Virus record (IMG/VR): IMGVR_UViG_3300042317_001198
Span: 1 to 44,597 of that record
Reading direction: 5' to 3' (one strand)
DNA: 44,597 nucleotides
From: a virus
A program made the position numbers and the translations under genes. The notes below the pieces were generated by a model. It did not search any database. It was not told the origin of the DNA and worked only from the letters and a program-made list of their open reading frames with translations. How positions within the stretch are numbered: the first letter of the stretch is position 1; the number at the start of each line of letters is the position of its first letter. Positions 15,201 through 42,046 of the stretch are shown here, piece after piece.

Positions 15201-18200
15201 TGGAACAACAAACAAGTCTACTTCAAATCAAGGACCAATTTGGACTTGACAGATATAAAAATGGATTCATTGTTGATCGATTCAAAGATCATGGTGCTGG
15301 TAACGTTTCCAACCCCAACTACAGATGCGCTATCGATCCCGGTAGTTTAGAGTGCCGCCCGTCGTTCTACTCCGACGATGTTAGACTGCTAGAGAAGGAA
15401 GGCCAGTCCAGGACAACGAATAGTTACCAGGTTACAGGTGATATTGCAACACTCCCTTATTCTAGTGTTGTTTTGATGGAGCAAAAAACAGCAACAACAC
15501 CCGAGTATATTACACCATACACCCATGTTAGATCAATGATTGGTGACTTAAAGATATTCCCTGCATCAGATACATGGGTTGATACAGTAACATTGCCTGT
15601 GATAAATCAAGTCGGAAATGGAAACTTTGCCGCTGTTCAAGTTATGGCACAATCAACAGGCATACTTGGTACAGTATGGAATTCGTGGCAAGCTACAGGC
15701 AGAACAACAATTGCATCGACACTAACCAATAGTGTTAGTAGAGTTGGTGTTGGTGCTCAAGGTGCCGAAACATCAAGAACGAATGTGGTTTCGACAAACA
15801 CATTAAATGGAACTGACTTACTAACTTTTGGTCGTGGCGGGATAGAGACATTTGTTCAAGAACAGATAGACGAAGTTGGAAGAGTAACTTCAGTAGTTGA
15901 TGAAAGTTGGTCGCCATTTATCAGACAAAAAGCTATAGTTCTCTTTGCTAAGAGAATGCTTCCTATAAACGGGTTCGATGTGTATGTTGATAACACAACT
16001 TTGACTCAATATGTTGTACCTGCAAGTACATTGAGATTAACTGATAAAGTCGGCACATTCTTGAACTATAGTACATCGAATATCGATCACTCCAACTTAA
16101 CTTCTAGGCAATATGGATCAAATTCATATGACATATTGGAGAGAGGTGAAGTTATACGAGGTGCCACATCCGGTGCAACAGCAATTGTTGTGTGCGAAGA
16201 AACACAAGTGGAGTTAGGTATCTCGGAATTGGTCCTTAAGGTGTTAAATGTAAAAGGTACATTTGTTGCCAATGAAAAGATTGTGGGCACCACTTCAGGC
16301 GCTTCTGCAACCTTTACATCTGTTACGACAGAAACGAATATCAGAACAAATAGTGCTGGTAGTTTCTACGGAATTTTAATGTTACCTAACAACAGTCAGG
16401 TTAGAATAACTGCTGGTATTGTGACGATCTCTTTAAGAGATAACATCGATCAGAAAAGTGCCAAAACAACCTCATTTGCAATGTACGATGGTCAAGGCAT
16501 AATTCAGACAATGCAGACAACTATAATGTCTATCAGAAATGGAGTCATTAGTAGGAGAAATGCCTCGGAGACGTCACAAACTACTGAGAATTGGTCAACG
16601 GTCGTATCCAGTACAGTCATTGCAACTGAAGTGACAAACTGTAACTGTGCATGTAACTGTGCATGTGATTGCGGCTCAGACCCATTATCACAAACATTTA
16701 TGCACAGTGATCGGGGCGGCATATTCTTAACATCAATCGACTTGTATTTCTATGACGTGGATCAAGATGAGTCGACAGGTGTATCATTCGAGATTCGTGA
16801 GGTTGTGAATGGGTATCCCGGCCCAGGTGTTGTGCCGTTCAGTCACGTTGTGAAATATCCTAGTGAGTTAGTTGCATCGAAAACATCATTGGTACCTACA
16901 AAATTCACGTTCGATTCACCGGTTTATCTACCTGACAATAAAGAATATTGTTTTGTTGTTGCATCTGGCATCAGCAATACGAGATTGTGGATTGCTAAAA
17001 TGGGAGAAGTTTCCTTAGATGGTAGGTCTGTGGTGTCACAACCAAGTTTAGGGTCAATGTTTAGGTCACAGAATAACTCAACTTGGGATGCTGATCAACT
17101 TAGTGATATGTGCTTTACATTATACAAAGCTAAGTTCAACATCACAACTCCGGGTCATGTTGCATTCAAGAACATTCCTCTGGGATCGACAAAGTTAGAT
17201 AACAACCCATTCAAAATCAATGCAAGTTCTACAACTGTCAGAGTGTCGCACAAAAATCACGGCCTATATGATGGTGCAATAATAACCTTCTCTGGTGTGG
17301 TGTCGGCTCTAACTCATCCAACCTCTGTTGAATTGAATAAAGACTTTACCATTAGTGATGTTGAGTTAGATTCCTACACAATCACAATTCCTGTTGCTGC
17401 AACAAATTCTGGCTGGTACGGCGGCGCAGCATGTATGGTCACAACAGGCAGAAGAATGGACACAATGCATGTTAGCGGAAAGGATTTTGTCCTCCCTGGC
17501 ACTCACATAAATTACACATACCGTGGCACAACTAGAATTAACAACGTTGTTGAAAAGCTTGCAATCGATTATCCTGTCCAATTGAATAGGAACATCGAGT
17601 TTGATAATCCTAGATATGTTCTGACACCTGCGAATGAAACAGATACTGTAAATGAAGACTCATTTTCTTTTGATGCTTTCTTATACAGCAACAATGAAAA
17701 CTTATCGCCTGTTGTTGATTTACCAACATACTCATTACACACAATCAGTAACAAGATCAATAACCCAACAAGTGCAATAAACAAAGAAATCGATAGTAAT
17801 TTGATTTTTAGTGTGGCTGGTGGTCATTCTGGTGTCATAGTATTCAACAATGCCGGTTATTTTATTATTTCTGGTGGGCTTTATGGGTCATATGTCACTG
17901 AATTAGGAGGTATAAAGGTTGGAAAGTATGTCAAGTTTACAGGGACTGTATCTAATAATAGCCCTCTGTTAGTGACAAAAGTTGAAAAACTATCTACACC
18001 TTCATATAAGATATACACATCATCAACTGTTGTCACTGAAACAGCACCAACAACGGCAATTACTTTGGTTAGGTATGATCATTATGTTGATGCAATCTCT
18101 CCTGACACAGCAAGCAATTTGGCATCGTATGTATCGAAGATTGTAGAGTTACAGAAGCAGTCCTCAGGATTTAAATTGATGTTTGATTATAACAAACCTG

Positions 18201-18448
18201 TGGATGCTCATATTGATGTTTACTATAAGGTGAATCTAAAATCAGCGTATGGTAATATCGAAAGACAAAATTGGACAAAACTGAGTGATGCTACATTCGT
18301 TGAAGGCTTAACGTCAGTTTTCAGAGAACAGTCTATAGATATGGAAACCGCGTTGTACGATCAAATAATGATTAAGATTGTGTTGAATTCTGATAATACT
18401 TCAAAGGTTCCTAGAATAAAGAATTTCAGATTGATTTCCTTGGCATAA
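12203..18448 (+). CDS. Giant DUF4815-type baseplate/tail protein, paralogue A, 2,081 aa
   Basis: Start ATG 12203, AAGG at 12191-12194. The N-terminus, VAPYYDDFDSTKNYHKILF, PGRALQSRELTQIQ and FKNGAMIVPG, is typical of the DUF4815 family of large myovirus virion proteins. Other modules: WAPSTVYIEGDII near 324; a GTQFSLDLVVGDTIVISG unit near 573; TSGATA and TSGASA units (about 1319-1375); six alternating Cys at 1480-1490; then DPLSQTF opening a jelly-roll-like domain with EIREVVNGYPGPGVVPF; and a KNHGLYDG module near 1686. Two further Cys, 1042 and 1051 (C-x8-C, ECRP), recur at the same spacing in paralogue B. It follows gp8, where T4 has gp9-gp12, so an outer-wedge or fibre-anchor role is likely (inference). 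Confidence 0.8.
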   Translation: MTINFSVAPYYDDFDSTKNYHKILFVPGRALQSRELTQIQSILQHQIKLNGDYMFKNGAMIVPGNVDLLNNVRYVKLESTIDGVSTDTIIDSFLDKKIVGATTDVKAVVIHVEKSTASEPPTLFINYISGGVVNNVFSTEFIRNEELCLEEDANTILKVLNLSTYTGLGSLANIKEGVYYINGFFVQNVAQVISLDKFGITPTYRIGLSFVENIITAFDDPTLNDTAVDSNNFGAPGADRYQVVLTLDKRSLFEDQENTNTTNDQFIDLLHVKDGQIQFKVNKTELSEFERTLARKTYDESGDYVVRPFKYEVHEYRNNNRGDWAPSTVYIEGDIIKKSVTVGITTKDQYFVALVNGVSSPTTFVPTNTYGEFDDSTMRWLATDKPVFNTGFHKSTSAETFDKQLLDSSLGLIKISEGTAFIKGFEVDVSGYRTVTFNKAREIKRVANSVIKCNTGAYILVNTVRGIPPLTHIDSSNKVLSKLTIKNAVGASVGTCRIRNVEYDSGTTTLDSCVYKCFIFDIVMDDGKLFYRDAKKIITASNTTFSANVVGTRVALSGSVTGSAGTINGDGTQFSLDLVVGDTIVISGVSYRVSAVTDSVTLTLDTATPTIATAVPVYLERTELVGAASLLQKLPTGFVRSLRGSDDSELSTEYYTKRVEQFVASGTTKAIPLTVTGETFAPNTTGNYFIALADGSAIPVVATVAGAGTSSITISGLTNAVTYRVMYTVKKISAAAKEKQKIRKIKTVDFTTVNSVSGEFMQLTEADCTRIISISQSGGTQFNYASPAATVSYDVSVLATDVTSNYRLDSGQTNTYYGLGKIYPLNGFKPSAPIRVTYEYFDHTQGDYFSVNSYNVPYNMLPVFNGVSAADYLDFRPRIDDNGTTFDAATGASVTEPLSEFYSLQTDYSYYLARRDILQLDPKGSFRVEEGIPADLPVAPLPNDDNVILAYVDLDPYTFTSNSSNVHITNNPMQRYTMKDIGAIDNRLKNVEYYTALNALEQQTSLLQIKDQFGLDRYKNGFIVDRFKDHGAGNVSNPNYRCAIDPGSLECRPSFYSDDVRLLEKEGQSRTTNSYQVTGDIATLPYSSVVLMEQKTATTPEYITPYTHVRSMIGDLKIFPASDTWVDTVTLPVINQVGNGNFAAVQVMAQSTGILGTVWNSWQATGRTTIASTLTNSVSRVGVGAQGAETSRTNVVSTNTLNGTDLLTFGRGGIETFVQEQIDEVGRVTSVVDESWSPFIRQKAIVLFAKRMLPINGFDVYVDNTTLTQYVVPASTLRLTDKVGTFLNYSTSNIDHSNLTSRQYGSNSYDILERGEVIRGATSGATAIVVCEETQVELGISELVLKVLNVKGTFVANEKIVGTTSGASATFTSVTTETNIRTNSAGSFYGILMLPNNSQVRITAGIVTISLRDNIDQKSAKTTSFAMYDGQGIIQTMQTTIMSIRNGVISRRNASETSQTTENWSTVVSSTVIATEVTNCNCACNCACDCGSDPLSQTFMHSDRGGIFLTSIDLYFYDVDQDESTGVSFEIREVVNGYPGPGVVPFSHVVKYPSELVASKTSLVPTKFTFDSPVYLPDNKEYCFVVASGISNTRLWIAKMGEVSLDGRSVVSQPSLGSMFRSQNNSTWDADQLSDMCFTLYKAKFNITTPGHVAFKNIPLGSTKLDNNPFKINASSTTVRVSHKNHGLYDGAIITFSGVVSALTHPTSVELNKDFTISDVELDSYTITIPVAATNSGWYGGAACMVTTGRRMDTMHVSGKDFVLPGTHINYTYRGTTRINNVVEKLAIDYPVQLNRNIEFDNPRYVLTPANETDTVNEDSFSFDAFLYSNNENLSPVVDLPTYSLHTISNKINNPTSAINKEIDSNLIFSVAGGHSGVIVFNNAGYFIISGGLYGSYVTELGGIKVGKYVKFTGTVSNNSPLLVTKVEKLSTPSYKIYTSSTVVTETAPTTAITLVRYDHYVDAISPDTASNLASYVSKIVELQKQSSGFKLMFDYNKPVDAHIDVYYKVNLKSAYGNIERQNWTKLSDATFVEGLTSVFREQSIDMETALYDQIMIKIVLNSDNTSKVPRIKNFRLISLA
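16640..16675 (+). other. Cys-rich motif CNCACNCACDCG encoded in DUF4815 paralogue A
   Basis: Codons 1480-1491 encode six Cys at every second residue. At the DNA level TGTAACTGTGCA (16640-16651) is repeated exactly at 16652-16663, followed by TGTGATTGCGGC, so one CNCA unit looks like a 12-nt tandem duplication. The motif lies between a Ser/Thr-rich stretch and a DPLSQTF-led beta domain. Possible roles are metal binding on a trimer axis, disulfides, or a substrate for the radical SAM enzyme; none is shown by sequence. Confidence 0.85.
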
Positions 18449-18478: not shown

Positions 18479-21400
18479 ATGACACTTAATCTAAATTCTG
18501 CACCATATTATGATGATTTTGATCCTGCTGACAATTATCTAAAGATATTGTTTCTGCCAGGTAGAACTATTCAGCCTCGTGAACTAACGCAATTACAAAC
18601 CACCATTCAAGAGCAAATAAAGAAGCACGGCGACTTCAATTTCCAAAATGGTGCAATGATTGTTCCTGGGTATATCAACTTTAGCAATAGAGTTACATAT
18701 GTAAAATTGAATGAGTTGGTTTCTGGGGTGTCAGTCAATAGTGTTATAGATGCACTCTCAGGGAAAATTGTTGTTGGTTCGACCACAGGAGTAAAAGCAT
18801 TAGTTCTGTTTAGTGAAAAATCAACATTAACAGATTCAGCTGCATTGTTTGTTCAATATGTGTCAGGCGGATTAGATCCACTGGATACCTCAATACTGTA
18901 TTCAGAATTTAAACCGGGTGAGGTTCTTACATTAGAAAATTCATCTAATTCAGTTATTGTTAGTGATGATGTAACATATACCGGTACTGGATCATTTGCG
19001 GAAATAGCCGAAGGCATATACTATGTAAATGGTTATTTTGTTCAAGTTGCTGCCCAAACAATATCACTTGACAAGTTCGGAACAACCCCATCATATCAAA
19101 TTGGACTGCAACTAAAAGAATCAATTGTAACAGCAGAAGAGGATTCTACATTATACAACAATGCGAGTGGGTTCTATAATACAACAGCTCAAGGTGCTGA
19201 TAGACTTAAAATCGAACTTATTTTAGAAAAGAAATCGTACTTTGACACCGCCGTAACAAACGAGTTTATACCGTTAATGTTTGTTAAGGACGGCGAATTG
19301 CAGAGTAAAGTTTCAACAACAAAACTAAATGCAACAGGTAAAATATTAGCTGACAGAACATATTCTGAATCAGGTAACTATACTGTCATTCCATTTAAAT
19401 TTGCGCCGGTTAGACATCGTTCAAACAACAGGGGAGAGTGGCAACCCAATACTCCGTATGTTGTGGGTGATGTTATCAATTATACAATTGACTCAAAAAC
19501 ATATTATCTAACGGCATTAAACACATTATCTTCCGGGTATTTGACACCAAATGTAACATACGGAGAATTTAATGATGGAGGCATCAGATGGTTAGTCGTA
19601 GATGCGCCAAGATATAATGGCGGTCTTTATGACGCAATTGGCACTTTAGATGCTCATGTGAGAGACTACAATACAGGTGATATTAGAGTAACAAAAGGCA
19701 AAGCATATATTAAGGGTAATGAAATTGATATATCAACTGGGTTCAGAAATGTTGAATTTAATCTAGAACCAGTATTTACAAACGCCTCATATAATTCTAT
19801 AACACCAATATCTGGTCAATATTTTTATATCAACGATATCAAAGGTTTGCCATCACTTGCAAACATTGATTCTGTAAATAAAATGTATTCAACATTTGAT
19901 ATAATGGACAACAATTTATCCATTACAGGGTCATGTCGTATTAGGAGTTTTGAGTATGATTCGGGGACACTAGGGGCAGCTGATTGTTTGGCTCGTCTTT
20001 ATATTTTCGACGTTGTTATGGATGCTGACAAGCCATTTGCACAATATGCTCAAAAGATTAAATCACAGAGTAATGGTTCATTTTCTGCAAACATTGTGGG
20101 AACCCAAAATGCACTTAGTGGTAGTGTATCAAATGGTGCTGGTTCAGGTACAATAACTGGAAACGGGACGCTGTTTTCTTTAGAGCTTTCTGTCGGTGAT
20201 TCCATTGTTATAAAAGGTTCGACAGTATCTTCTCATAAAGTGACAAACATCGCAAGTGCAATATCGATGACGGTTGTTCCCGCTGTGGTTGGTGCAAATA
20301 GTAATGTGATCTGCTATAAGGAAAGTTCCGCAATATCAGGTGTCAATTCTCTGATACAACCTTTACCTGATTCTTTTGTGAAGACCATTAGAAATGATTT
20401 GGGTGATGTGAAAACATCATATCATGTCAAGCGCATGTATCAAGCTAGAGCAATAAACGATACCATCACCCTAAACGTCTCTTCACAGAATGAATTGTTC
20501 TCATCAACCAGTCCTGATTTACATTTAGTATCTTTAGAAGATGGAACAGTAGGTCCGATTAATGGACTGACAATAACAATATCAGGCACAAACAACTCGC
20601 AGTTACAGATATACAAGGCAGGGTTGGGGAATAGTACATATCGTGTTTTAACAACAATCAAGAAACTTTCATTATCAGCTAAAGAAAAAGTAAAAACACG
20701 GAAGTTTAAAACCATTGTATTGAACACATTGAATGATGCTGATATACCAAAAATTCCATTAACAGAAGCAGATGTTGTTCGTGTTGTTTCTGTTACTCAA
20801 TCTGGTTCAAATTATTTCGATTACACAAAACGATCTGAGTTTAAAGAATATGTTGATCTGGATGAAATTGATATTACATTATACTACACGATAGAATCAA
20901 CATCAAACAACACTTATTATAATGTTAGTTATGTGCAACCAACATCAAATTGGTCGCCAACAGCACCAATTAAGATTACTTATGAGTATTATGATCATGG
21001 CCCGGGAGATTATTTTTCTGTAGATTCATATGATGTTCCTTATTCCATGATCCCTAAGAATGGGATGAATAGCTTTGCTGATTTTCTAGACTTTAGATCA
21101 AGAATATCAGACGGCGGCCTAAGTTTTGACACAGCTGATGGTGCATCTATTTCTGAGCCACTTTCAAGTATTCATCCAATAGAACTATTCTATTCGATAT
21201 ATCTGCCTAGGCGAGATGTAATAGAAATAACATCTGATGGAAGCTTTAGAATTGAGCAAGGTCAGCCTAGCTTAAATCCTGTTGCTCCAATAGCTAATGA
21301 CGGTTCAACTATATTGGGCATAATGCAAATACCGGCATATGTTTTCAATATTAGTGATGTCACTATCACCAACGTCAATATAAAACGATACACAATGAAG

Positions 21401-24400
21401 GATATTGAGTCGATAAAAAATAGATTGGACAATGTCGAATCCGCCGCATCATTATCTATGTTGGAATCGTCTGCATACTTAGAACAAATACAAGATGGGT
21501 TTGGACTTACTAGGTTTAAAAACGGATTCATTGTTGATCAGTTTAAGGATCATAGCACAGGAAATGTCGGTGACCCTGATTATAAATGTAGTATAGACTC
21601 AACAAGGCAAGAATGTCGCCCAATGTATGTTGCCAATGATATAAAGTTGATAGAAACTGACAATCATTTACGCAACCTAAATGGATACACTGTAACTGGT
21701 GATCTTGTTACATTGCCTTATACCGAGACAATTCTATTCCAAAACATAAATGCATCGACACCAGAGAATATAACACCGCTGACTCATATCAGTTCTTCTG
21801 TAGGTAGTTTGAATATATTTCCTGCAGCAGACACATGGATCGATGAGATAACAATTCCGAGTATAGAAGTTCGTAGTCAGGGGTCGTTTGCCTCAACAGA
21901 ACTTGTAGCAACTCAGTTGGGTGTGTTGGGTACAGTTTGGAATGCATGGCAAGAGGTTGCAAGAACAACAGTTGCGACTGAAACAACCATCAATAGGAGT
22001 GCTTCTAATTCGTCTGTTTCTTTTGATTCAACAACTGGTGCTGAAATATCTGCAACCACAACAATAACCACTAGAACTGACACTGTTGTTACTATTGTTG
22101 ATGGAACAGATGAGGTTACAAGAGAAAGAACAGGTATAAACACATTTGTTCAAGAACAATGGGACGAACTTGGTAGGGTTGATGGACTGTCTACTCAGAA
22201 TTGGGTGCCATTCATTCGCCAAAAGGCAATTGTAATGTATGGCAAAAACTTCATGCCACGTGTCCCTTTATATGCGTACATAAATCAATTTAATGTAACT
22301 GATTATGTTGTGCCCGCTTCAACACTCGAGTTCACTTCTAAAACTGGCACTTTCTTAGATTATAAATTCTCTAATATCGATCAAACAGATTTGAGCACCA
22401 GACAATACGGCGCAAATTCATATGACATATTGGAAAAGGGTGAAATTATTTACGGTGCAACTTCTGGTGCTTCAGCTATTACTATAGCTGAAGAACTTGT
22501 TGATGGAACAAGTTATCTAAGGATACTCAATGTCAAAAATGGCCCATTTGTTGATGGGGAAACTGTTAGGGGTAAAACTAGCGGCGCTTTCGGTGTAATA
22601 AATGGTACCAACGAAGAAGGCGAAATGGCTACAAGTGTAGATGGTTCGTTTTTCGGACTGTTGATGCTGCCAAATAATGACACCATTAAAATAGCTGCAC
22701 AGATTATCAATATACAGTTAAGAAATACATTGATGGGCGAGCAAGAAATAACAAGTGCAATTGCATTGTATGACGCCCACGGCATTGCAAATCAAAAACA
22801 AACAACTATATTATCTGTTCGCAATATCAATATATTACGAAGAGGCGTGTTGGACACAACTATAGTTAATGAGAATTGGCAAACGTCATCGTCTGTATCA
22901 ACAAACACAGTAGTCGGCAATACAAGAACAGTTGTGAACTGTAATTGCGCTTGTGATTGCGGCGGCGGTGGGGGCGGTGGTGGTGATCCATTAGCACAAT
23001 CATTTGCTCACACTGATAGTGGTGGTGTTTTTATCACCAAAGTTGATCTTTATTTTTATGCATTAAGTCAATTGGATACAGCACCTATATTCTTAGAAAT
23101 CCGTGAAGTTGTTAATGGATATCCAGGACCATCTGTGGTGCCATTTAGTAACGTAACAGTTCCACCTAGTTTCGTTGCAAATAAAGTATCAACAACAAGC
23201 CTTATACCAACAACATTCACATTTGAGTCACCGGTGTTTTTATCTGATAATACAGAGTATTGTTTGGTAATTGGATCAAACTTTGATGCATTCGCAGAAA
23301 CAAAAGTCTGGACTTCCAAACTAACAGAAGTAAATATTAGAGGTCAGGTTATAACTAGTCAACCGCTGTTAGGTTCAATGTTCAAATCACAAAATGGATC
23401 ATCGTGGAATGCCGAGCAATTAAGTGATGTGTGTATGACTGTGTATAAGGCACAATTTAACACATCTAAGCAAGGCCACCTGAAATTCAAAAATAATCCA
23501 ATCGCTTCAGAGAATATGATGATTGATCCATTCAAAGTGATAAATGGAACTACATTGGTTCGTGTCCTTCATAACAACCATGGTTTAGTAGCGGGTGATA
23601 AAGTCACATTTAGTGGTGCAATTGCCCCTGTTACGGCATTGAATGCTCAATACACAGTAGCTAATGCAACAATTAATGCATTCACTGTTACACTTGGTGG
23701 CAATGCGACATTTACAGGTTGGGTGGGTGGAAATAACGTCAAAATCACAACAAATAAGAGATTTGATACTTTGTACCTAGCGGGTGAAGATCAGGTGTTA
23801 CCAGGGTCACACATCAATTATACTGTCAGAGGAACCAATGCTAGTAGGGTAAAGCCTGCACTCGATTACCCTATTCAAATAAAGCAGAACTACGTAATGG
23901 ATGCGCCGCATTACATAATGTCACCTGAGAATGAAACATTGTACTCAACAGGGGATTCAGTCGAGGTTGATGCATACTTATACAGTAACAACCCTAATAT
24001 ATCACCAGTTATCGACTTAAACACATTCTCACTACATGCAATATCCAACTTGATAAACAATGAAACTGAGGCTGATAATAAGAGTGTCGATGCAAACACA
24101 TTAGTAAATAATGATGACTTAGCTGGCAATGCAGTGTTCAATAATGCAGGATACTTTACCATCACTGATCCTCTATACCTCGATGCTGTCAATACAATCA
24201 AAGTTGGACAATATGTAAAGTTCACTGGAACTGCATCCAACAATAGTGCTATGCTGGTCACAAGAAAAGAAACTGATATCACCACATATTGCACAATATA
24301 CACTTCGTCTCCTGTGGTTAATGAAACAGCATCAGGTTTAGTTACTTTGGTTATATACGATTTCTTTGTGGATTCTATCGCCCCAAGTGCAACGAGCAAC

Positions 24401-24733
24401 TCAGCAAATTACATTTCGAGAATATTCGAAACAGAACGAGTGTCATCAGGTATTAGATTATTCTTCGATTATGTGAAACCAACAGAGGCGTCCTTACGAG
24501 TGTTCTATAAAGTCAATCTAAAATCAGAAATGCAATCGATTGAAACAAAACCATGGACTGAACTAACAGGATTATCATTCATAAACTCATCAAACTCGAA
24601 CTCATACATAGAACAGAAGATTGATAAAGAGCTGGGCAGTTTTAATGAAATCACTATTAAAATTGAAATGAGAACCACCAACACATCGAGGGTACCTAAA
24701 TTGAAAAATATGAGATTGATTACATTAGTATGA
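18479..24733 (+). CDS. Giant DUF4815-type baseplate/tail protein, paralogue B, 2,084 aa
   Basis: A full-length paralogue of the preceding gene, nearly equal in length and colinear; about 47 of the first 79 residues are identical by hand count. It shares the APYYDDFDPADNYLKILF start, WQPNTPYVVGDVI (near 321), the TSGA units, Cys1037 and Cys1046 in C-x8-C spacing, a DPLAQSF-led beta domain with EIREVVNGYPGPSVVPF, and the NNHGLVAGDKV module. The Cys-rich linker differs: four alternating Cys (1488-1494) then eight Gly. A CGGAAA at 18466-18471 serves as ribosome site; an out-of-frame ATG at 18471 stops at once. Its end overlaps the next ATG by 4 nt. A tandem duplication with divergence is the simplest origin. 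The virion position is inferred from family and context. Confidence 0.8.
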   Translation: MTLNLNSAPYYDDFDPADNYLKILFLPGRTIQPRELTQLQTTIQEQIKKHGDFNFQNGAMIVPGYINFSNRVTYVKLNELVSGVSVNSVIDALSGKIVVGSTTGVKALVLFSEKSTLTDSAALFVQYVSGGLDPLDTSILYSEFKPGEVLTLENSSNSVIVSDDVTYTGTGSFAEIAEGIYYVNGYFVQVAAQTISLDKFGTTPSYQIGLQLKESIVTAEEDSTLYNNASGFYNTTAQGADRLKIELILEKKSYFDTAVTNEFIPLMFVKDGELQSKVSTTKLNATGKILADRTYSESGNYTVIPFKFAPVRHRSNNRGEWQPNTPYVVGDVINYTIDSKTYYLTALNTLSSGYLTPNVTYGEFNDGGIRWLVVDAPRYNGGLYDAIGTLDAHVRDYNTGDIRVTKGKAYIKGNEIDISTGFRNVEFNLEPVFTNASYNSITPISGQYFYINDIKGLPSLANIDSVNKMYSTFDIMDNNLSITGSCRIRSFEYDSGTLGAADCLARLYIFDVVMDADKPFAQYAQKIKSQSNGSFSANIVGTQNALSGSVSNGAGSGTITGNGTLFSLELSVGDSIVIKGSTVSSHKVTNIASAISMTVVPAVVGANSNVICYKESSAISGVNSLIQPLPDSFVKTIRNDLGDVKTSYHVKRMYQARAINDTITLNVSSQNELFSSTSPDLHLVSLEDGTVGPINGLTITISGTNNSQLQIYKAGLGNSTYRVLTTIKKLSLSAKEKVKTRKFKTIVLNTLNDADIPKIPLTEADVVRVVSVTQSGSNYFDYTKRSEFKEYVDLDEIDITLYYTIESTSNNTYYNVSYVQPTSNWSPTAPIKITYEYYDHGPGDYFSVDSYDVPYSMIPKNGMNSFADFLDFRSRISDGGLSFDTADGASISEPLSSIHPIELFYSIYLPRRDVIEITSDGSFRIEQGQPSLNPVAPIANDGSTILGIMQIPAYVFNISDVTITNVNIKRYTMKDIESIKNRLDNVESAASLSMLESSAYLEQIQDGFGLTRFKNGFIVDQFKDHSTGNVGDPDYKCSIDSTRQECRPMYVANDIKLIETDNHLRNLNGYTVTGDLVTLPYTETILFQNINASTPENITPLTHISSSVGSLNIFPAADTWIDEITIPSIEVRSQGSFASTELVATQLGVLGTVWNAWQEVARTTVATETTINRSASNSSVSFDSTTGAEISATTTITTRTDTVVTIVDGTDEVTRERTGINTFVQEQWDELGRVDGLSTQNWVPFIRQKAIVMYGKNFMPRVPLYAYINQFNVTDYVVPASTLEFTSKTGTFLDYKFSNIDQTDLSTRQYGANSYDILEKGEIIYGATSGASAITIAEELVDGTSYLRILNVKNGPFVDGETVRGKTSGAFGVINGTNEEGEMATSVDGSFFGLLMLPNNDTIKIAAQIINIQLRNTLMGEQEITSAIALYDAHGIANQKQTTILSVRNINILRRGVLDTTIVNENWQTSSSVSTNTVVGNTRTVVNCNCACDCGGGGGGGGDPLAQSFAHTDSGGVFITKVDLYFYALSQLDTAPIFLEIREVVNGYPGPSVVPFSNVTVPPSFVANKVSTTSLIPTTFTFESPVFLSDNTEYCLVIGSNFDAFAETKVWTSKLTEVNIRGQVITSQPLLGSMFKSQNGSSWNAEQLSDVCMTVYKAQFNTSKQGHLKFKNNPIASENMMIDPFKVINGTTLVRVLHNNHGLVAGDKVTFSGAIAPVTALNAQYTVANATINAFTVTLGGNATFTGWVGGNNVKITTNKRFDTLYLAGEDQVLPGSHINYTVRGTNASRVKPALDYPIQIKQNYVMDAPHYIMSPENETLYSTGDSVEVDAYLYSNNPNISPVIDLNTFSLHAISNLINNETEADNKSVDANTLVNNDDLAGNAVFNNAGYFTITDPLYLDAVNTIKVGQYVKFTGTASNNSAMLVTRKETDITTYCTIYTSSPVVNETASGLVTLVIYDFFVDSIAPSATSNSANYISRIFETERVSSGIRLFFDYVKPTEASLRVFYKVNLKSEMQSIETKPWTELTGLSFINSSNSNSYIEQKIDKELGSFNEITIKIEMRTTNTSRVPKLKNMRLITLV
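22940..22987 (+). other. Cys/poly-Gly motif (CNCACDC then eight Gly) encoded in DUF4815 paralogue B
   Basis: Codons 1488-1494 encode C-N-C-A-C-D-C and the next eight codons are all Gly, followed directly by DPLAQSF. The position matches the six-Cys motif of paralogue A. Gly codons vary (GGC, GGT, GGG), so the run is not a simple slippage tract. It lies in the same operon as the radical SAM gene about 2 kb downstream. Confidence 0.85.
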
Positions 24734-24928: not shown

Positions 24929-26302
24929 ATGTCTATTTTTTATGTGCATGGTGAGAACTGGGATACCGGTGAAAAGAAAGTGTTTGTTTATGATAATGAG
25001 ACGTCTTCTCTAAGTGTTTTGGGTGGTGAAAAAATTGACCTGGAAAAATTCTCAGACTACAAAGGGAATTTCTACAAGAAGGCAAAACAATTTTCGATTG
25101 ACAAGCCACTTGGGAAAAGTAATAGCCCTAAGAAATTGAAAATTCAGCTTGGACTTAAGTGTAACTACTCATGTGATTATTGTTCTCAGGCATTACATGC
25201 AAGTGATTCAGTAGACTTCACACCTAAAGAAATTGAGACATTTTTAAATAGGCTTAAATCACTCGATTTGAGTAAAGTTAATATGATTGAATTTTGGGGC
25301 GGTGAACCATTTGTGTATTGGAAAACAATTCGTCCATTAACAGAAAAACTTAAAGTTATGATCCCAAATGTGAAATTTCTGATCATAACAAATGGATCTC
25401 TTTTATCGGATGATATAATCACTTTTCTAGATGAGAACAACTTCGCAGTTGCAATTTCTCACGACGGCCCAGGGCAATCAATTAGAGGTCCGGATCCTTT
25501 CGACGATCCTGAGAAACGTGAGAAGATATTAAAGTTGTTTAATTTACTTCACCCAAAAGGTAAAATAAGTTTCAATGCAGTGCTTCATGCCAAAAATTAC
25601 AGTAGAAAAGCTATTATGGATTTTTTCATCGAAAAGACAGGATGCGAAACAGTTGGGTTTGGGGAAGGTGCCGTGATCGATGCATATAATGATGGTGGAC
25701 TAGAACTATCATTCTATGATTATCAAGACATGATTAAATTTAGGAGAACTGCATTTTCTGAACTTAGTGAATTGGGTCGTGGGCAATTATCAATTAAGCA
25801 CAATAAGATAACAGGGTTTATATCAACCATTGTTAATCAGAGAAATTGGCACACTTTAGGTCAAAAATGTGGCATGGATAGTGAAGATAATTTAGCTGTT
25901 GATATGAAGGGTAATGTTGTCACTTGCCAAAACGTGAGTGCCAATCTAAAATCCTTTAATGGAGAAAGTCATAAAATAGGAACAATCGACAATATCGGTG
26001 ATGTGAAATTGAACACCGGCACTCACTGGTCTTTAAGGGAAAATTGTCAGAAATGTCCAGTTCTTCAACTTTGTGGTGGGTCTTGCTTCATGCTTGAGGG
26101 AGAACATTGGGATAGGTCATGCGATAATTCATATAACGATAATGTGGTATTTTTCATGTATGCAATCGAAATACTAACAGGATTTATACCGTATTGGATT
26201 GAGGGTGTCGATTTGCCTGAGTGGAGGAAAGATGTGTTGGGAATGCAGTATCCTGACATGACTCGCAAGAAAAAGAGTGTCATACCGATAAAACTAGTAT
26301 AA
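24929..26302 (+). CDS. Radical SAM/SPASM-domain enzyme (peptide/protein-modifying type), 457 aa
   Basis: Start ATG 24929 with GAGG at 24920-24923. The radical SAM signature is C78-x3-C82-x2-C85 (CNYSCDYC), with the SAM-binding WGGEP at 123-127. The C-terminus holds a complete seven-Cys SPASM pattern: C314-x13-G-x4-C333, then C373-x2-C376-x5-C382-x3-C386, then C398. So three [4Fe-4S] clusters are expected. Family knowledge: SPASM enzymes include anaerobic sulfatase maturases, PqqE, and sactipeptide and ranthipeptide maturases, which act on peptides or proteins. No RRE-like (PqqD-like) domain is evident in residues 1-70. It sits in a late structural operon right after a Cys-rich giant protein, suggesting a virion-protein substrate (inference). 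All key residues are intact, so it is probably active. Confidence 0.93.
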   Translation: MSIFYVHGENWDTGEKKVFVYDNETSSLSVLGGEKIDLEKFSDYKGNFYKKAKQFSIDKPLGKSNSPKKLKIQLGLKCNYSCDYCSQALHASDSVDFTPKEIETFLNRLKSLDLSKVNMIEFWGGEPFVYWKTIRPLTEKLKVMIPNVKFLIITNGSLLSDDIITFLDENNFAVAISHDGPGQSIRGPDPFDDPEKREKILKLFNLLHPKGKISFNAVLHAKNYSRKAIMDFFIEKTGCETVGFGEGAVIDAYNDGGLELSFYDYQDMIKFRRTAFSELSELGRGQLSIKHNKITGFISTIVNQRNWHTLGQKCGMDSEDNLAVDMKGNVVTCQNVSANLKSFNGESHKIGTIDNIGDVKLNTGTHWSLRENCQKCPVLQLCGGSCFMLEGEHWDRSCDNSYNDNVVFFMYAIEILTGFIPYWIEGVDLPEWRKDVLGMQYPDMTRKKKSVIPIKLV

Positions 26303-34955: not shown

Positions 34956-37900
34956 ATGAGTGTATTACCTGTAGGATTTGGTAGCAGTGGTGGGTATAGT
35001 ATTTCGAACTCGCTTCGCCTTCGTGCGAGTGCGAGTGCCTATTTGTCGAGGACGTTCGGGACGCCGACTGCCGCAAATACGTCAACAACTTCTTTCTGGA
35101 TAAAGAAAACAGTGGCTCCGGGAGGGTCTGCACAGGTCATTTTCGGCTATGGGGGGGTTACCACCAATAACGCGATATGGCATCAGTGGAATACATCAGA
35201 TATTGTAGGAATATCGAACTCAGCAGGGTCGGCGCTATGCACTTCGACCGCTGTTATTCGTGATCCTTCTGCGTGGTATCACTTCTGCATAGTCAATAAC
35301 GCAGGTACATGGACGATATACCGCAACAACGTATCAATCGCAACAGGGTCAGGAACCTGCAATATCAATGGAGCATCAACACTGCACTATATTGGGTGTG
35401 GTGGGGGGACAACGTACTTTGCCGACTGCTATTTGGCTGAGTTTGTGTTTGTGGATGGAACCGCTCTAACACCTTCCAGCTTTGGTGAAACCAATTCTGA
35501 TGGTGTGTGGGTTGCGAAAGCAATCTCGGGGCTGACCTATGGCACTAATGGTTTTTATCTAAATTTCAAAGATGCCGCAGTCACCGCAGGTAGCAACGCA
35601 GGACTTGGCAAGGACGTTTCCGGCAACGGGAACTACTGGAATACCATCAACGTAAGCACGGCGTCGGGCGTGACCTACGACCAGATGACGGACACGCCGA
35701 CGAATAACTATGCGACCTTGAATAGTATCGCAAAGGCAGCAGGTACGTTTACTGAGGCAAACCTGAAATATGATGGTGGGTCAGGAAACAATCAAACTGT
35801 AGCAACCATTGCGATTCCCAAGTCGGGTAAGTGGTTCTTGATGATTCAGCGGACTTCCGGAGCCTCGACTACCTACCCAGCATTTGGTATTGCTGGTTTG
35901 GATAATGCTTCCAAGATACCGAATGCATCAGGTGGGACGACGCCTGGGGATTATTCAGATGGGGCGGCATTTTTGTGGAACGGGGCAAAACGTAACAGTC
36001 TTAGTGATACTGCCTCTTACTGGACGCCCCCTGCAAATGGCTCTTGGGCATGTATCGCCTTTGATGCTGCAACCGGAAAGATATGGGTTGGGACCATCAG
36101 TGGAACAACAATAACTTGGGTCGGTGATCCTGCTGGGGACACATCCCCAGCATATACGTTGAGTACGACTTCGACGCACTGGCTTTTCGGACTAACAGGA
36201 AATGACAATTCAGTATTAGCTATGGAATTCGGCCAGCGCAATTTTCATGGCGTTACTCCACCTACAGGCTTTAAAGCCCTCTGCACCGCCAACCTTCCGA
36301 GCGTGGCGATAACAAAACCGAAACTGCACTTTGCCGCTGACACCTATACAGGTAATGCCGGCTCTCTTGTTGTTCGTGACAGTGTCAATAGTGGATATAA
36401 TGAGGCTGTACCCGTTACTAACTCATTGCGTTTTGATGGTGTGGATGCTCGTCTAAGTAGGTCATTCGGTTCAGGTGGAAATCGTAGAAAGTGGACGTGG
36501 AGTGGGTGGGTTAAACGCTCCCAGTTCGGCAGTGTGCGCTTTCCATTACTTCAACTCGGAACAGCTAGCTCAGACTCCACCTATTTCTCGATGGGATTTC
36601 ATAATACTACATTAGACGATTCATTTTATGTCGGTGGTGGATTGACTAATTGGCGTATATCGAATGCAATTTATCGTGACCCTTCTACTCATTATCATGT
36701 TGTTGTGGCTATCGACGTTGATAATGGTACCGCAAATAACCGTATTCGAGTATGGATTCAAGGAGTTGAGATTACTTCATGGAATACTATAAACAATCCG
36801 AGTGCCATTGATCTTGCAGTTAACCAGTCTGGCGTAACACATTATATGGGATTTAATGAGGCTGGCACTAACTACGGTGACGGATATCTCTCCAATATTC
36901 ATTTCATAGACAACCAAGCATTAACAGCCAGCGACTTCGGCCAATTTGATGCAGATAACATTTGGGTTCCTAAAGCATATACTGGATCTTATGGCACCAC
37001 AAGTTTTTACCTTGACTTCTCCACTACCACAAATACTACAACATTAGGTGAAGATGCTGCGGGCACTAATGATTGGACATTGACTGGCATGACACGTGCG
37101 GCCGGTGCAGATGAGTGTCTGTCATCGGACACACCAACGAATAACTTTTGTGTAATTAATGCTGTACGTCGTGGAACTGCTTATCGTGCTACAATAAGCA
37201 ATGGCGGACTCGTTGCAACAGCTATTGCAACAGCTACACAACATCCTGCATTGAGCACACTCGCACCTCGAACCGGCAAGTGGTACTTCGAGGTTGTATT
37301 TACAGCGATATCATATATCCCCAGTATCGGTGTAAATGATCCAGCTGCATCACTCGGTAATGGTGATGACTGGAGATCGTATCAGAAGGGTGCTTCATTG
37401 ATGGCCAACGGCACATTATACACGAATAGTGTCAGCTCTTCGCCTGGTTACACTTTTGCAGTTAATGACTGCATGATGGTTGCTTTCGATGTGGATGTGG
37501 GCAAACTGTGGATTGGTAAGAATGGTACGTGGTTCAACAGCGGGAATCCTGCTGCTGGTACTGGTCAAGTCGCCGGCCTGTCTGGATATAGTGCATTAAC
37601 CCCTATTATAGATACTACATACTCAGGCGGTGCTGACGTGGCAAAGGCTTCATTCGGACAAGCCCCGTTAGATGCCGCAGCTACATGGAGTTCAACAGCG
37701 AAGGGCTACTTTAAGTATGACCCCGCCAGTTACAATGCAACGGGTTTCAAGGCACTATGCTCCGACAACCTGCCTGATCAATATGACTTTGCCCCCGACC
37801 TTATCTGGCTCAAGAATAGAATTAATGCAGTGGAGTGGGTTAGAGTAGATTCTGTGCGTGGATGGGGAGTGAAGTCAAAAGAGACATTGGCTGGTGAGGT

Positions 37901-38816
37901 TGCTGACGTTAATGTTATAGATAGAGTGCTAGACGGCGGGTATGTCGTCGGCAATAGTGCGAACTCAAATACTTCAAACAATACTTATGTTGGTTACTCT
38001 TGGAAGGCCGGCGGTGCTCCCACAACAGACAATGCAGCGGCTGCTGGCGCAGTCCCGACACTGCATTCAGTAAAAATTGACGGAGTGAGTTCCACTGCTG
38101 CTTTAGCTGGAACCATGCAGATTACACGTCTCAGTGCAAATACTACTGCCGGATGTTCGATTGTAACATACACAGGCACTGGAAGTGCCAAGACAATACC
38201 ACATTGTCTTGGGGTTGCTCCATCAATGATAATTGTAAAGGCCCGTACAGTAGGATACAACTGGACTGTATATCACAAGAGTGCAAGTGATGGGTATCTT
38301 TATATGAATACGACAGATACTAAGCAGACTGCTGTTGCTGCCACCGTCTTTGGCAACGGAACCATAGTAGTAAATCCCGATTCTACAGTATTCAGTGTCG
38401 GCAGCGATGGAATAGTGAACTATTCAACATACCCAATGATGGCATATTGTTTCGCCGAAATCCCCGGTTACAGCAAGTTCGGGAGCTACACCGGAAACGG
38501 CTCAAGTGATGGCCCCTTCGTGTATTGCGGATTCAGGCCGAGGTATGTGTTGATTAAGAACACGAGCGCTGCTGCTGCTTGGTACGTTTATGACACAGCT
38601 AGGGACACATACAACTTGTCGGTACTTGAGCTAAACCCGAATAATGCGCAATTGGAAGAATCGAATCTCTACGGCAGTTTGGACATCACTTCCAATGGCT
38701 TCAAGCTGCGATTTGCGGGCGGTGAAGTAAACAACACCACCAACACATTCATCTTCGCCGCATTCGCAGAGCACCCCTTCGGCGGCAGCAACGTCAGCCC
38801 CGCACCTGCACGTTAA
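34956..38816 (+). CDS. Large lectin/SPRY-type adhesin, 1,286 aa
   Basis: ATG 34956 follows the previous stop with no gap. Domain order, by reading: LamG-like lectin fold 1 (about 19-195: SLRLRASASAYLSRTFG, FVFVDGTALTPSSFG), SPRY-like 1 (about 260-450: SGKWFLMIQ, FGQRNFHGVTPPTGFKALC), LamG-like 2 (about 490-680: SLRFDGVDARLSRSFG, SDFGQFDADNIWVPKA), SPRY-like 2 (about 745-940: TGKWYFEVVF, FGQAPLDAAATW, TGFKALCSDNLP), and a C-terminal phage module (about 943-1286: FAPDLIWLKNR, DSVRGWG, YVGYSWKAGG). LamG domains often bind glycans, so host-surface binding is likely. The DNA is patchily GC-rich (36 of 60 at 35641-35700 and at 38461-38520), unlike most of the window, which suggests acquisition from elsewhere. 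No hydrolase motif was seen. Confidence 0.8.
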   Translation: MSVLPVGFGSSGGYSISNSLRLRASASAYLSRTFGTPTAANTSTTSFWIKKTVAPGGSAQVIFGYGGVTTNNAIWHQWNTSDIVGISNSAGSALCTSTAVIRDPSAWYHFCIVNNAGTWTIYRNNVSIATGSGTCNINGASTLHYIGCGGGTTYFADCYLAEFVFVDGTALTPSSFGETNSDGVWVAKAISGLTYGTNGFYLNFKDAAVTAGSNAGLGKDVSGNGNYWNTINVSTASGVTYDQMTDTPTNNYATLNSIAKAAGTFTEANLKYDGGSGNNQTVATIAIPKSGKWFLMIQRTSGASTTYPAFGIAGLDNASKIPNASGGTTPGDYSDGAAFLWNGAKRNSLSDTASYWTPPANGSWACIAFDAATGKIWVGTISGTTITWVGDPAGDTSPAYTLSTTSTHWLFGLTGNDNSVLAMEFGQRNFHGVTPPTGFKALCTANLPSVAITKPKLHFAADTYTGNAGSLVVRDSVNSGYNEAVPVTNSLRFDGVDARLSRSFGSGGNRRKWTWSGWVKRSQFGSVRFPLLQLGTASSDSTYFSMGFHNTTLDDSFYVGGGLTNWRISNAIYRDPSTHYHVVVAIDVDNGTANNRIRVWIQGVEITSWNTINNPSAIDLAVNQSGVTHYMGFNEAGTNYGDGYLSNIHFIDNQALTASDFGQFDADNIWVPKAYTGSYGTTSFYLDFSTTTNTTTLGEDAAGTNDWTLTGMTRAAGADECLSSDTPTNNFCVINAVRRGTAYRATISNGGLVATAIATATQHPALSTLAPRTGKWYFEVVFTAISYIPSIGVNDPAASLGNGDDWRSYQKGASLMANGTLYTNSVSSSPGYTFAVNDCMMVAFDVDVGKLWIGKNGTWFNSGNPAAGTGQVAGLSGYSALTPIIDTTYSGGADVAKASFGQAPLDAAATWSSTAKGYFKYDPASYNATGFKALCSDNLPDQYDFAPDLIWLKNRINAVEWVRVDSVRGWGVKSKETLAGEVADVNVIDRVLDGGYVVGNSANSNTSNNTYVGYSWKAGGAPTTDNAAAAGAVPTLHSVKIDGVSSTAALAGTMQITRLSANTTAGCSIVTYTGTGSAKTIPHCLGVAPSMIIVKARTVGYNWTVYHKSASDGYLYMNTTDTKQTAVAATVFGNGTIVVNPDSTVFSVGSDGIVNYSTYPMMAYCFAEIPGYSKFGSYTGNGSSDGPFVYCGFRPRYVLIKNTSAAAAWYVYDTARDTYNLSVLELNPNNAQLEESNLYGSLDITSNGFKLRFAGGEVNNTTNTFIFAAFAEHPFGGSNVSPAPAR

Positions 38817-39394: not shown

Positions 39395-39931
39395 ATGGCA
39401 TACATTGGAACAAAACTTAATGACGTCTATTCCATAAACGGGATAGTAAAAGGGAACGGTGGGGCGAACCCATCTGCCGCTACTGGTGCAGAGATTCTCA
39501 GTCCGATTACTGGAGGTCAAATTCTTGCTGCAATCGGCTCCGCTACTGGTGGAACTACACAGTCAAGTTTAGATAACAGCACTAAGCTAGCTACAACTGA
39601 ATATGTTGATAACCTACGTAATGTGGCAGCCAATGCACAGACGGCCCAATACACAATCGCTCTAACTGACCGAGGCAATTCAATCGACATTACAACTGGC
39701 GGAGTTCTTATTCCTACAAATGCATCGGTCGCATTTCCAGTAGGTGCTGTCGTAGCAGTGTATAACAATAGCGGCAGCGCACAAGACATTGCCGCTGTAA
39801 CTCCTGGTACAACTACTGTCCGTAAAGCAGGGACTGCCACAACAGGAACATTATCACTCGCCCAATACGGTGTTGCCACTATGCGTAAAGTTGCAACTGA
39901 TGTGTGGGTTGTTTCAGGTACACTAGCATGA
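39395..39931 (+). CDS. Short tail fibre protein, 178 aa
   Basis: Start ATG 39395 with AGAGGA at 39383-39388. The N-terminal half carries STKLATTEYVDNL (about 62-75), the T/A-T-x-E/Q-Y-V-D signature that recurs in T4-type long and short tail fibres. The C-terminal half (about 82-178: YTIALTDRGNSIDITTGGVL, FPVGAVVAVYNNSGSAQDI, RKVATDVWVVSGTLA) is a small beta domain widely found at phage fibre ends. The gene ends in an ATGA shared with the Gly-rich adhesin. This is reminiscent of a T-even fibre followed by its gp38 adhesin, though this fibre is much shorter. Probably the shaft or adaptor that carries the adhesin. Confidence 0.8.
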   Translation: MAYIGTKLNDVYSINGIVKGNGGANPSAATGAEILSPITGGQILAAIGSATGGTTQSSLDNSTKLATTEYVDNLRNVAANAQTAQYTIALTDRGNSIDITTGGVLIPTNASVAFPVGAVVAVYNNSGSAQDIAAVTPGTTTVRKAGTATTGTLSLAQYGVATMRKVATDVWVVSGTLA

Positions 39932-40740
39932 GTGGAATGCTAATGATGATGATGGCCGGGGGTGGCGGTGGCTTTCAAGGGGTAATTTCTTCTAATCAGC
40001 AGGAATTGAATCTTGCAACTTGGGCCACTTCAAATGGGTGGGATGGATCTGCAGAGGCAATAATTACCATCAACAGTGGCATTTACGTTTGGTCCGATAA
40101 CACTGCAACTGCTGCATTGACCACAGGTAATTTCCCGGGTGGACTGATTATAGTTAACAATGGGTACATCATGGGGAAAGGGGGTGTGGGTGGCGGGTAT
40201 ACTGGAATGAATGGTGGTGCTGGTGGTAATGCAGTTTCTCTGGGGTGTAATTGTTCCATAAATAATGGCAATGGATACATCCTCGGGGGAGGTGGCGGGG
40301 GAGGTGGCGGTTCAGCAGGTCAATGTGGCGGGGGAGGTGGCGCCGGGGGAGGAAAAGGCGGTCGCCACTATCATGACGCAAACTCAGGTGGCGCAGGCGG
40401 CACAGTTGGAAACTCAGGCTCAAACGGAGTTGTGTATGATGCAAATAACGCTTCTGGCGGCGGTGGCGGACGAATTCATAATGGATCAAATGGAACAAGT
40501 TACACTACAGCAACAAATGCCGGCGGTGGCGGCGGTGCAGCGGGCGGTGGAGCAGCAACTGTAGTTGGATATGGTACTGGATTTGGTGGTGCTGGTGGCG
40601 GGTGGGGTGCGGCAGGCGCTCAAGGAAATAATCAAGGATCATGGGTATCATCAGGCGGCGACGCCGGCAAGGCCGTAGCGAGAAACGGATATACCCCGAC
40701 TTGGCTTGCGAATGGTAATGTTAGTGGAGATGATTCATGA
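39928..40740 (+). CDS. Poly-glycine receptor-binding adhesin (T-even gp38-like), 270 aa
   Basis: I place the start at ATG 39928, which overlaps the upstream stop in ATGA; a GTG at 39904 in the same frame would overlap by 28 nt and is less likely. After a Met-rich N-terminus (MSGMLMMMMAGGGGG) comes a compact beta segment (about 30-85, ending VNNGYIMGKGGVGGG), then Gly-rich runs to the C-terminus, the longest nine Gly (residues 120-128), interrupted by short loops such as RHYHDANS and RIHNGSNGTS. In the phage S16 and T2 gp38 adhesins, Gly-rich runs form a sandwich of polyglycine II helices whose loops bind the receptor. C107-x-C109 recalls the CxC runs of the giant proteins. Translationally coupled to the next gene by another ATGA. 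Confidence 0.8.
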   Translation: MSGMLMMMMAGGGGGFQGVISSNQQELNLATWATSNGWDGSAEAIITINSGIYVWSDNTATAALTTGNFPGGLIIVNNGYIMGKGGVGGGYTGMNGGAGGNAVSLGCNCSINNGNGYILGGGGGGGGGSAGQCGGGGGAGGGKGGRHYHDANSGGAGGTVGNSGSNGVVYDANNASGGGGGRIHNGSNGTSYTTATNAGGGGGAAGGGAATVVGYGTGFGGAGGGWGAAGAQGNNQGSWVSSGGDAGKAVARNGYTPTWLANGNVSGDDS

Positions 40741-41180
40741 CGGATCAAGAATTAGCAACTGAATTTATACGGGCAAAGATTGGCGACAGTTCCGCTATTG
40801 CGATCCTGTATTTCAAATCATATAACATGACAACTAAGACTGACTTGGGCTTAGGATTTAAGGTTGGTCACAAGTATATCATAAAAGTCATCGGGGGCAT
40901 GGTTGTGGAATGGTATATGTCTAATGTAGAGATTGATGGTGTGGCTTATAGGTGGGTGAGTTTGGACATTGTCACTGGTGAGGTTGTCGACCATTACTTT
41001 GAGGAAGGGGCGACGCTGACAAAAACAGACCCTAATGGGAATATACAAATAACAAATTATATTGGGATGCCATTAAGTGCAGAACTTCCACATGAAGTTA
41101 ATGATTTCCCTTATGACGTTAGTATGATTTTTGCATGGGCAAATAGACCATATGGTCTTATCTTGGAGTATTTTGTATGA
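40737..41180 (+). CDS. Unknown protein coupled to the Gly-rich adhesin, 147 aa
   Basis: Both ends use ATGA overlaps (start 40737 with the adhesin, stop with the methyltransferase), so it is tightly coupled to both. Features seen: an N-terminal helix (MTDQELATEFIRAKIGDSSA), a beta-rich middle (FKVGHKYIIKVIGGMVVEWY, AYRWVSLDIVTGEVVDHYF) and an aromatic C-terminus (MIFAWANRPYGLILEYFV). There is no signal peptide, membrane segment or Cys. I do not recognise a family. Its position suggests an adhesin chaperone, a cap, or a partner of the methyltransferase; these are guesses from context. Confidence 0.75.
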   Translation: MTDQELATEFIRAKIGDSSAIAILYFKSYNMTTKTDLGLGFKVGHKYIIKVIGGMVVEWYMSNVEIDGVAYRWVSLDIVTGEVVDHYFEEGATLTKTDPNGNIQITNYIGMPLSAELPHEVNDFPYDVSMIFAWANRPYGLILEYFV

Positions 41181-42046
41181 CAAATATTGTTGTTCCTTTT
41201 AAATCAGACCATGTTGTCTCTCAATCAGCCATAAGCAATGCAGTCTATCGTTACTACAACAAAAAACGTGACGACAGAAATCAGCGGCAGGCGGGAGACA
41301 CAATGATCGTACATCACCACTTTGGTCTAGGGGATCTTCAAATTGACCTCGACGTCGCAACACAAGACGAAATCACTAGTGAAATTCAGAGATTGGAATC
41401 AAACCTCACTAATCATATATTGATGTTACTAAACCCTAACTGCAACGATACGATACTAGATCTTGGGTGCGGGCGAGGTGGTAATATGATCACAATAGCA
41501 AAAGCTACAGGCGCAACTATTGTGGGTAGCAACCTTTCAGAGTATCAGGCCGAGTATTGTAAGAAAGCATTCGAATTCAACGGCGTCTCGGATAAATGTA
41601 GAGTTGACATAAATGATTTTACTAATTTACCTTATGATGATAATTCATTTTCTGCTGTGTATTCAAGTGAAATTACAGAATATGTTTTCGATTTGGTCAA
41701 ATTTTTCGCAGGGATAAATCGCACAATGGCGGTTAATGGGAAGTTCGTGATTGCAACTTGGTGTTACGACAAGACTTTTAATGAGAATGATTTAGTTAAA
41801 TTAATAGACCCTATTAATTTGCATTACGCTTCGACAATACACCCATCCGATGAATATTTAAGCGCATTAAAAGAATCAGGATTTGATGTCGTTCATTTAG
41901 AGGACAGAAGTAAAGATTTTCTACCGTACTGGCATTTGCGAAAGAGGTGGAATGATGCAAGTGGTATCGAAGATTCTTTCATTGAAGGACACACAAATGG
42001 TATGTTAAAGTACTTATTCATTACTGCTAAAAAGCGTGGCTGTTAA
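41177..42046 (+). CDS. SAM-dependent methyltransferase resembling geranyl diphosphate 2-C-methyltransferase, 289 aa
   Basis: A class I methyltransferase: motif I is ILDLGCGRGGN (93-103), with a NLSEYQAEYCKKA segment (119-131) and an acidic LPYDDNSF motif (151-158). The rest follows the geranyl diphosphate C-methyltransferase (GPPMT) pattern as I recall it: RYYNKKRDDRN (25-35), a triple His HHHFGLGD (46-53), EIQRLE (69-74), YSSEITEYV with Glu165 at the place of the reported catalytic Glu, a WCYDK segment, INLHYASTIHPSDEYLSALK, LPYWHLR and GIEDSFIEGHTNGMLKYLFI. GPPMT makes 2-methyl-GPP for 2-methylisoborneol synthesis; no terpene cyclase is visible here. It is coupled by ATGA to the 147-aa gene in an adhesin operon, so its substrate may differ. 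Fold is certain; the GPPMT-like subfamily is likely; substrate is unknown. Confidence 0.88.
   Translation: MTNIVVPFKSDHVVSQSAISNAVYRYYNKKRDDRNQRQAGDTMIVHHHFGLGDLQIDLDVATQDEITSEIQRLESNLTNHILMLLNPNCNDTILDLGCGRGGNMITIAKATGATIVGSNLSEYQAEYCKKAFEFNGVSDKCRVDINDFTNLPYDDNSFSAVYSSEITEYVFDLVKFFAGINRTMAVNGKFVIATWCYDKTFNENDLVKLIDPINLHYASTIHPSDEYLSALKESGFDVVHLEDRSKDFLPYWHLRKRWNDASGIEDSFIEGHTNGMLKYLFITAKKRGC

Follow-up and report, generated by a model that had tools for sequence, protein, structure and literature searches.

Quinones, carotenoids, lipid carriers and tRNA modification all draw on isoprenoid building blocks, and methylation of prenyl diphosphates occurs in bacteria making unusual terpenoids and in the synthesis of R. 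fascians cytokinins. An enzyme of this kind for which solved structures (PDB 3vc1/3vc2 and 4f84-4f86) and a curated profile (NCBIfam NF041943) are both available is geranyl diphosphate 2-C-methyltransferase (GPPMT; EC 2.1.1.255). In the S. coelicolor enzyme, the diphosphate and Mg2+ are anchored by Arg34, Val36, Asn37, His49, Tyr51, Glu81, Tyr256 and Arg260, with His49 directed to the beta-phosphate, Tyr256 and Arg260 to the alpha-phosphate and Glu81 anchoring diphosphate/Mg2+ (PMC12929941), while Asn37 is described as a Mg2+/diphosphate ligand in two reports (PMC7862628, PMC12929941). Glu173 is the catalytic residue and, together with Phe222, stabilises the cation (PMC7862628). Gly202 is reported to control the acceptance of GPP versus C5 substrates, the G202M substitution allowing GPPMT to use DMAPP (PMC10881772), and the R. 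fascians methyltransferases MT1 and MT2 act on IPP (PMC9401056, PMC10881772). Prenyl diphosphates are likewise the substrates of BezA (PDB 7fbh/7fbo) and C6-FPP-MT (PDB 9tb4), both of the class I fold, the latter being devoid of the GPPMT Mg2+/diphosphate residues (PMC12929941). In the literature searched, the coverage of which is incomplete, no earlier report of a phage prenyl-diphosphate methyltransferase was found.

Genomic location of the methyltransferase gene

The stretch of DNA analysed here (named the window) corresponds to the full 44,597 bases of IMG/VR virus record IMGVR_UViG_3300042317_001198, a linear record. It carries T4-like baseplate and tail genes with matches to PAAR, gp25, gp6 and gp8, the nearest relatives of its gp6 being found in marine cyanophages (approximately 36% identity), while a large structural protein (34956-38816) has matches in pelagiphages, cyanophages and a Methylophilales phage. 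An earlier note on this DNA had placed a GPPMT-like methyltransferase gene in a phage tail operon, a description which is right for this window. The ORF is preceded, in order, by tail-fibre-like ORFs, an adhesin-like ORF and a 147-aa ORF (Table 1). Similarity searches with the latter returned no clear relative, and its stop overlaps the start of the methyltransferase ORF by 4 bases, which makes translational coupling possible.

Table 1 Features of the methyltransferase locus, with coordinates in the window
Feature	Coordinates	Strand	Basis
Glycine-rich adhesin-like ORF	39904..40740	+	weak matches: Gp38 (E 0.08), tail-fibre
147-aa ORF, directly before the methyltransferase ORF	40737..41180	+	ORF list, similarity searches
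Prenyl-diphosphate C-methyltransferase-like ORF, 289 aa	41177..42046	+	profile, PDB, region-wise and structure comparisons
N35 (Asn37 of S. coelicolor GPPMT), predicted Mg2+/diphosphate ligand	41279..41281	+	alignment
HHHFG block, residues 46-50; H47 (His49), F49 (Tyr51)	41312..41326	+	alignment
E74 (Glu81), predicted diphosphate/Mg2+ anchor	41396..41398	+	alignment
SAM-binding motif LDLGCGRGG, residues 94-102	41456..41482	+	sequence matches
E165 (catalytic Glu173)	41669..41671	+	alignment; PMC7862628
W195 (Gly202 of GPPMT), substrate-size position	41759..41761	+	alignment; PMC10881772
H216-Y217 (His221-Phe222), aromatic stabilising the carbocation in GPPMT	41822..41827	+	alignment; PMC7862628
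PYWHLR, residues 250-255; Y251 (Tyr256), R255 (Arg260)	41924..41941	+	alignment
GIEDSFIE family block, residues 263-270	41963..41986	+	alignment

Evidence for membership of the prenyl-diphosphate C-methyltransferase family

The best PDB matches of the 289-aa protein were GPPMT structures (4f84, E 2e-35; 3vc1, E 7e-35), values which exclude a chance resemblance; the GPPMT match spans residues 22-285, whereas the next family (E 1e-12) covers residues 90-256 only. The comparison of GPPMT with other class I methyltransferases at the profile level, as proposed in the earlier note, gave 162.2 bits over residues 21-286 for the NCBIfam GPPMT model NF041943 against 53 for the next model, and a profile built from the two phage proteins (see below) gave 152 bits for GPPMT versus 63 for the next match.

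In order to separate the generic SAM fold from family signal, three region-wise profiles were built from bacterial prenyl-diphosphate methyltransferases. With the N-terminal cap profile the window protein scored 33.9 bits, compared to at most 1.1 for generic methyltransferases and 5.6 for the best of 200 shuffles; with the C-terminal profile it reached 64 bits, generic methyltransferases not exceeding 5.4 and 200 shuffles not exceeding 7.4. The core region profile placed one generic methyltransferase between the two phage proteins, and the core SAM fold matches many families, as would be expected of a generic small-molecule N- or O-methyltransferase resembling GPPMT by chance; the N-cap and C-terminal signal, the active-site residues, the tree and the 100-bit gap to the next family make such an identity very improbable. 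The homology to the GPPMT/IPP methyltransferase family in the broad sense is full-length, including the N-cap and C-terminal substrate-binding regions, and the 289-aa protein is very probably a member of the prenyl-diphosphate C-methyltransferase family.

GPPMT in the strict sense is a different matter. The curated cut-off of the NF041943 equivalog (400 bits) is missed by both the window protein and the second phage copy (171.1 bits), whereas six high-scoring bacterial loci obtained 485-540 bits; R. fascians MT1 and MT2 are also below the cut-off (314 and 333 bits). Identity to any characterised family member is only about 30%, and the best 80 loci of a genome-collection scan, nearly all with actinobacterial record names, are 29-33% identical to the window protein. 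The likeness to GPPMT proposed in the earlier note therefore stands insofar as this is the nearest solved and curated relative, and is not supported as regards GPPMT itself in view of the score, the identity and a Trp in place of Gly202. The unusual observation is confirmed as a deep branch of the prenyl-diphosphate C-methyltransferase family which is carried by phages and distinct from GPPMT proper. So far this lineage has been seen in two phages only, and the closest relatives found among solved structures and the genomes sampled are bacterial enzymes methylating isoprenoid building blocks.

Several other candidate relatives were rejected. GenBank 'phage' relatives (Enterococcus phage Efs 1-1-1 and others) are 25-29% matches; the Efs 1-1-1 match does not contain the active-site set, and a match equal in extent and identity is found in an E. 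faecalis plasmid record. The match of a further IMG/VR contig (L120) is mainly to the SAM core. The phylum sample obtained with a genome labelled Melainabacteria (L074) is the one also obtained with a Nocardia genome, so that the sample holds no cyanobacterial relatives.

Conservation of the active site

The residue numbering of S. coelicolor GPPMT was checked against its sequence, and its eight anchors were found to align, in the order listed above, to D32, R34, N35, H47, F49, E74, Y251 and R255 of the window protein, with E165 and Y217 at the positions of Glu173 and Phe222. Six of these residues (Asn37, His49, Glu81, Tyr256, Arg260 and Glu173) are shared without change by the two phage proteins and every aligned bacterial member, while five generic methyltransferases are without this set; at the Phe222 position the two phage proteins retain an aromatic residue, Tyr. 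The ORF described in the earlier note is real, and the family blocks named there as reaching beyond the generic SAM fold are all present and align to GPPMT residue by residue (YYN at 26-28, HHHFG at 46-50, E165 at the catalytic position, NLHYASTIHPSDEY at 214-227 and GIEDSFIEGHTNG at 263-275). The loss of diphosphate-binding residues, which according to that note would count against its reading, is not observed in the alignment, where N35, H47, E74, Y251 and R255 are kept.

The likeness to GPPMT thus comprises full-length homology, the catalytic Glu, the Mg2+/diphosphate residues, the HHH and PYWxLR blocks and the fold. The retained Mg2+/diphosphate residues also distinguish the window protein from C6-FPP-MT, and its identity to BezA and C6-FPP-MT is 17-20%. 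Position 34 of GPPMT is not conserved, the bacterial members having R, D or N there. Departures from GPPMT that weigh against the function proposed below are Y51F, V36R and Asn-to-Ser changes just before the catalytic Glu.

Phylogeny and structural model

A tree was generated from 25 proteins (two phage, 20 bacterial and three generic methyltransferases as outgroup), in which the phage proteins pair (99/97), the 20 bacterial members fall together (97/90) and a 100/99 branch parts phage and bacterial members from the generic methyltransferases; its branches are long, and those bacterial members that are named are actinobacterial. Consequently, the grouping with generic methyltransferases that would have spoken against family membership is absent with these three outgroups. 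This tree replaces an earlier one with five HMM-trimmed outgroup pieces, which was spoiled by long branches, one long-branch outgroup having fallen between the phage rows.

The AlphaFold model of the window protein (pLDDT 85) was superposed on GPPMT as the earlier note had suggested, giving a Z score of 36.2 and 1.8 A over 268 residues, the N-terminal helices among them, against 30.5 for the next family, C6-FPP-MT (29 to 30.5 for BezA and C6-FPP-MT taken together); the underlying alignment, from which all plasmid-record rows were left out, is rich in bacterial family members, so that the GPPMT likeness of the model is partly built in and is supportive rather than independent. A model produced from only the two phage sequences was of low quality (pLDDT 53) and was set aside.

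Position 202 and substrate size

The window protein is devoid of the Gly at position 202 which gives room for the geranyl chain. A Trp occupies this position in the two phage and the two R. fascians proteins as well as in the second methyltransferase of Herbihabitans rhizosphaerae (L071), the other aligned bacterial members having Gly. The R. fascians pair is located on plasmid pFiD188 beside a P450, a ferredoxin and a transketolase gene, a place by which the two were identified as MT1 and MT2; they share the same active site with the window protein, yet are only 26-28% identical to it, and their genes differ in setting from the phage gene, which lies among virion genes. The H. rhizosphaerae protein, the function of which is putative, shares RYY and HHHF variants with the phage proteins, but belongs to a terpenoid-type gene cluster (two polyprenyl synthases, a squalene-hopene-cyclase-like protein and a P450). 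Judged from these residues, the pocket looks made for a chain shorter than geranyl, and the substrate is probably a C5 (IPP/DMAPP-type) prenyl diphosphate, because W195 is as in the IPP-methylating R. fascians enzymes and in the H. rhizosphaerae protein. Three generic methyltransferases also have Trp here, and this residue may therefore be ancestral, which leaves it suggestive only.

A second phage copy and neighbouring radical SAM genes

IMG/VR scans covering 2.9 million contigs, performed with the methyltransferase family and the neighbouring proteins as queries, retrieved one other viral family member, 43% identical to the window protein. It is located on contig IMGVR_UViG_3300042691_026427 (L092), a linear record of 149 kb which carries NrdA, ferrochelatase/2OG and tail or virion structural families. 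At E 1e-4, the window proteins had no match on this contig beyond the methyltransferase and a short tail-fibre stretch, and the phage is otherwise unrelated to the window phage.

The second methyltransferase lies in an AT-rich gene run (34% GC) between structural genes. This run (L092:3593-20591) interleaves radical-SAM-like ORFs with ORFs that have no recognisable relatives. It contains eight CxxxCxxC (radical-SAM-like) ORFs, the motif of the ORF at 16924 being assigned from its B12/radical SAM match, and the majority of the eight match radical SAM families; SPASM peptide maturases are the best match for several, and one is KedN5-like with a B12-binding domain. A 220-aa ORF in the run (L092:6973-7635) ends in CHSSCHNNCHGSRGRR, a C-terminus with counterparts in Burkholderia phages FLC6, FLC8 and SURPRISE13 (56% over 39 residues). 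The FLC6 gene, gp72 (L117:5557-6117), has a cupin gene and an Fe-S oxidoreductase gene next to it and a radical SAM gene at a greater distance, and the shared C-terminus resembles a conserved core peptide that phage radical SAM enzymes would mature.

In the window there is a single radical SAM/SPASM gene (24929-26302), located among tail genes 15 kb upstream of the methyltransferase. Its product is CcpM- and sulfatase-maturase-like and is 42% identical to a protein of Achromobacter phage JWF. Just upstream of it are the genes of two giant tail proteins of approximately 2080 aa each (12203-18448 and 18479-24733), both with a dense cysteine motif (CNCACNCACDC / CNCACDC) near residue 1480.

The occurrence of both methyltransferases among virion genes together with radical SAM enzymes is notable, and comprises two cases only. 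It could be read as modification of a virion protein, with a tail or adhesin protein as the target of both the methyltransferase and the radical SAM/SPASM protein encoded among the tail genes. Each phage copy is found in a structural region that also encodes radical SAM/SPASM peptide-maturase-like proteins, and the window gene follows the glycine-rich adhesin-like ORF and overlaps its 147-aa neighbour; against this, the radical SAM gene of the window is 15 kb away from the methyltransferase gene, the two phages have no adhesin in common, and the conserved N-terminal segment, which in GPPMT provides diphosphate ligands over a small-substrate pocket, would better fit a small molecule. We regard such protein modification as improbable, and methylation of an adhesin side chain, one of the substrates listed in the earlier note, obtained no direct support.

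Proposed function

The gene probably encodes a class I SAM-dependent C-methyltransferase acting on a short prenyl diphosphate, the chemistry being proposed by analogy with its homologues. The Mg2+-bound substrate would be held under the N-terminal segment by N35, H47, E74, Y251 and R255, the methyl group of SAM would be transferred to a C=C bond of the prenyl diphosphate, the resulting cation would be stabilised by Y217 and E165, and loss of a proton would yield a methylated prenyl diphosphate during infection, which may then enter host isoprenoid metabolism.

Partner genes for such a product were sought on both contigs. Neither a polyprenyl synthase nor a MiaA-type transferase was detected in either, which is weak evidence since both are linear records, and the terpene synthase model PF19086 had no match on either contig (both may be fragments) and passed its cut-off in no control genome; the window contig thus differs from the GPPMT setting in that no terpene synthase was found. 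Given that no partner genes were detected, the product would be used by host enzymes, or host isoprenoid metabolism would be disturbed, or the enzyme would have been recruited to another substrate. The last of these corresponds to an enzyme of the same family repurposed for another small diphosphate or for a non-prenyl small molecule (nucleotide-sugar, lipid-linked or secondary-metabolite-like) from phage or host. Besides the undetected partner genes, the deep divergence from the bacterial members and the biosynthesis-like island around the second copy, with its eight CxxxCxxC ORFs and KedN5-like protein, would agree with repurposing; however, the two phage proteins, at only 43% mutual identity, have the same five diphosphate/Mg2+ side chains and the same catalytic Glu as GPPMT, and both keep the aromatic of F222 as Tyr, so that we consider repurposing rather unlikely, albeit a serious alternative. 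A more elaborate scenario, in which the phage lineage and the radical SAM maturases jointly assemble or attach a methyl-branched group of prenyl (or similar) type on a virion protein or on a small molecule produced during infection, is speculative and quite doubtful.

A short prenyl diphosphate is the favoured candidate substrate. A phage enzyme in which the diphosphate site is complete would imply that viruses are able to modify the basic isoprenoid units of their host.
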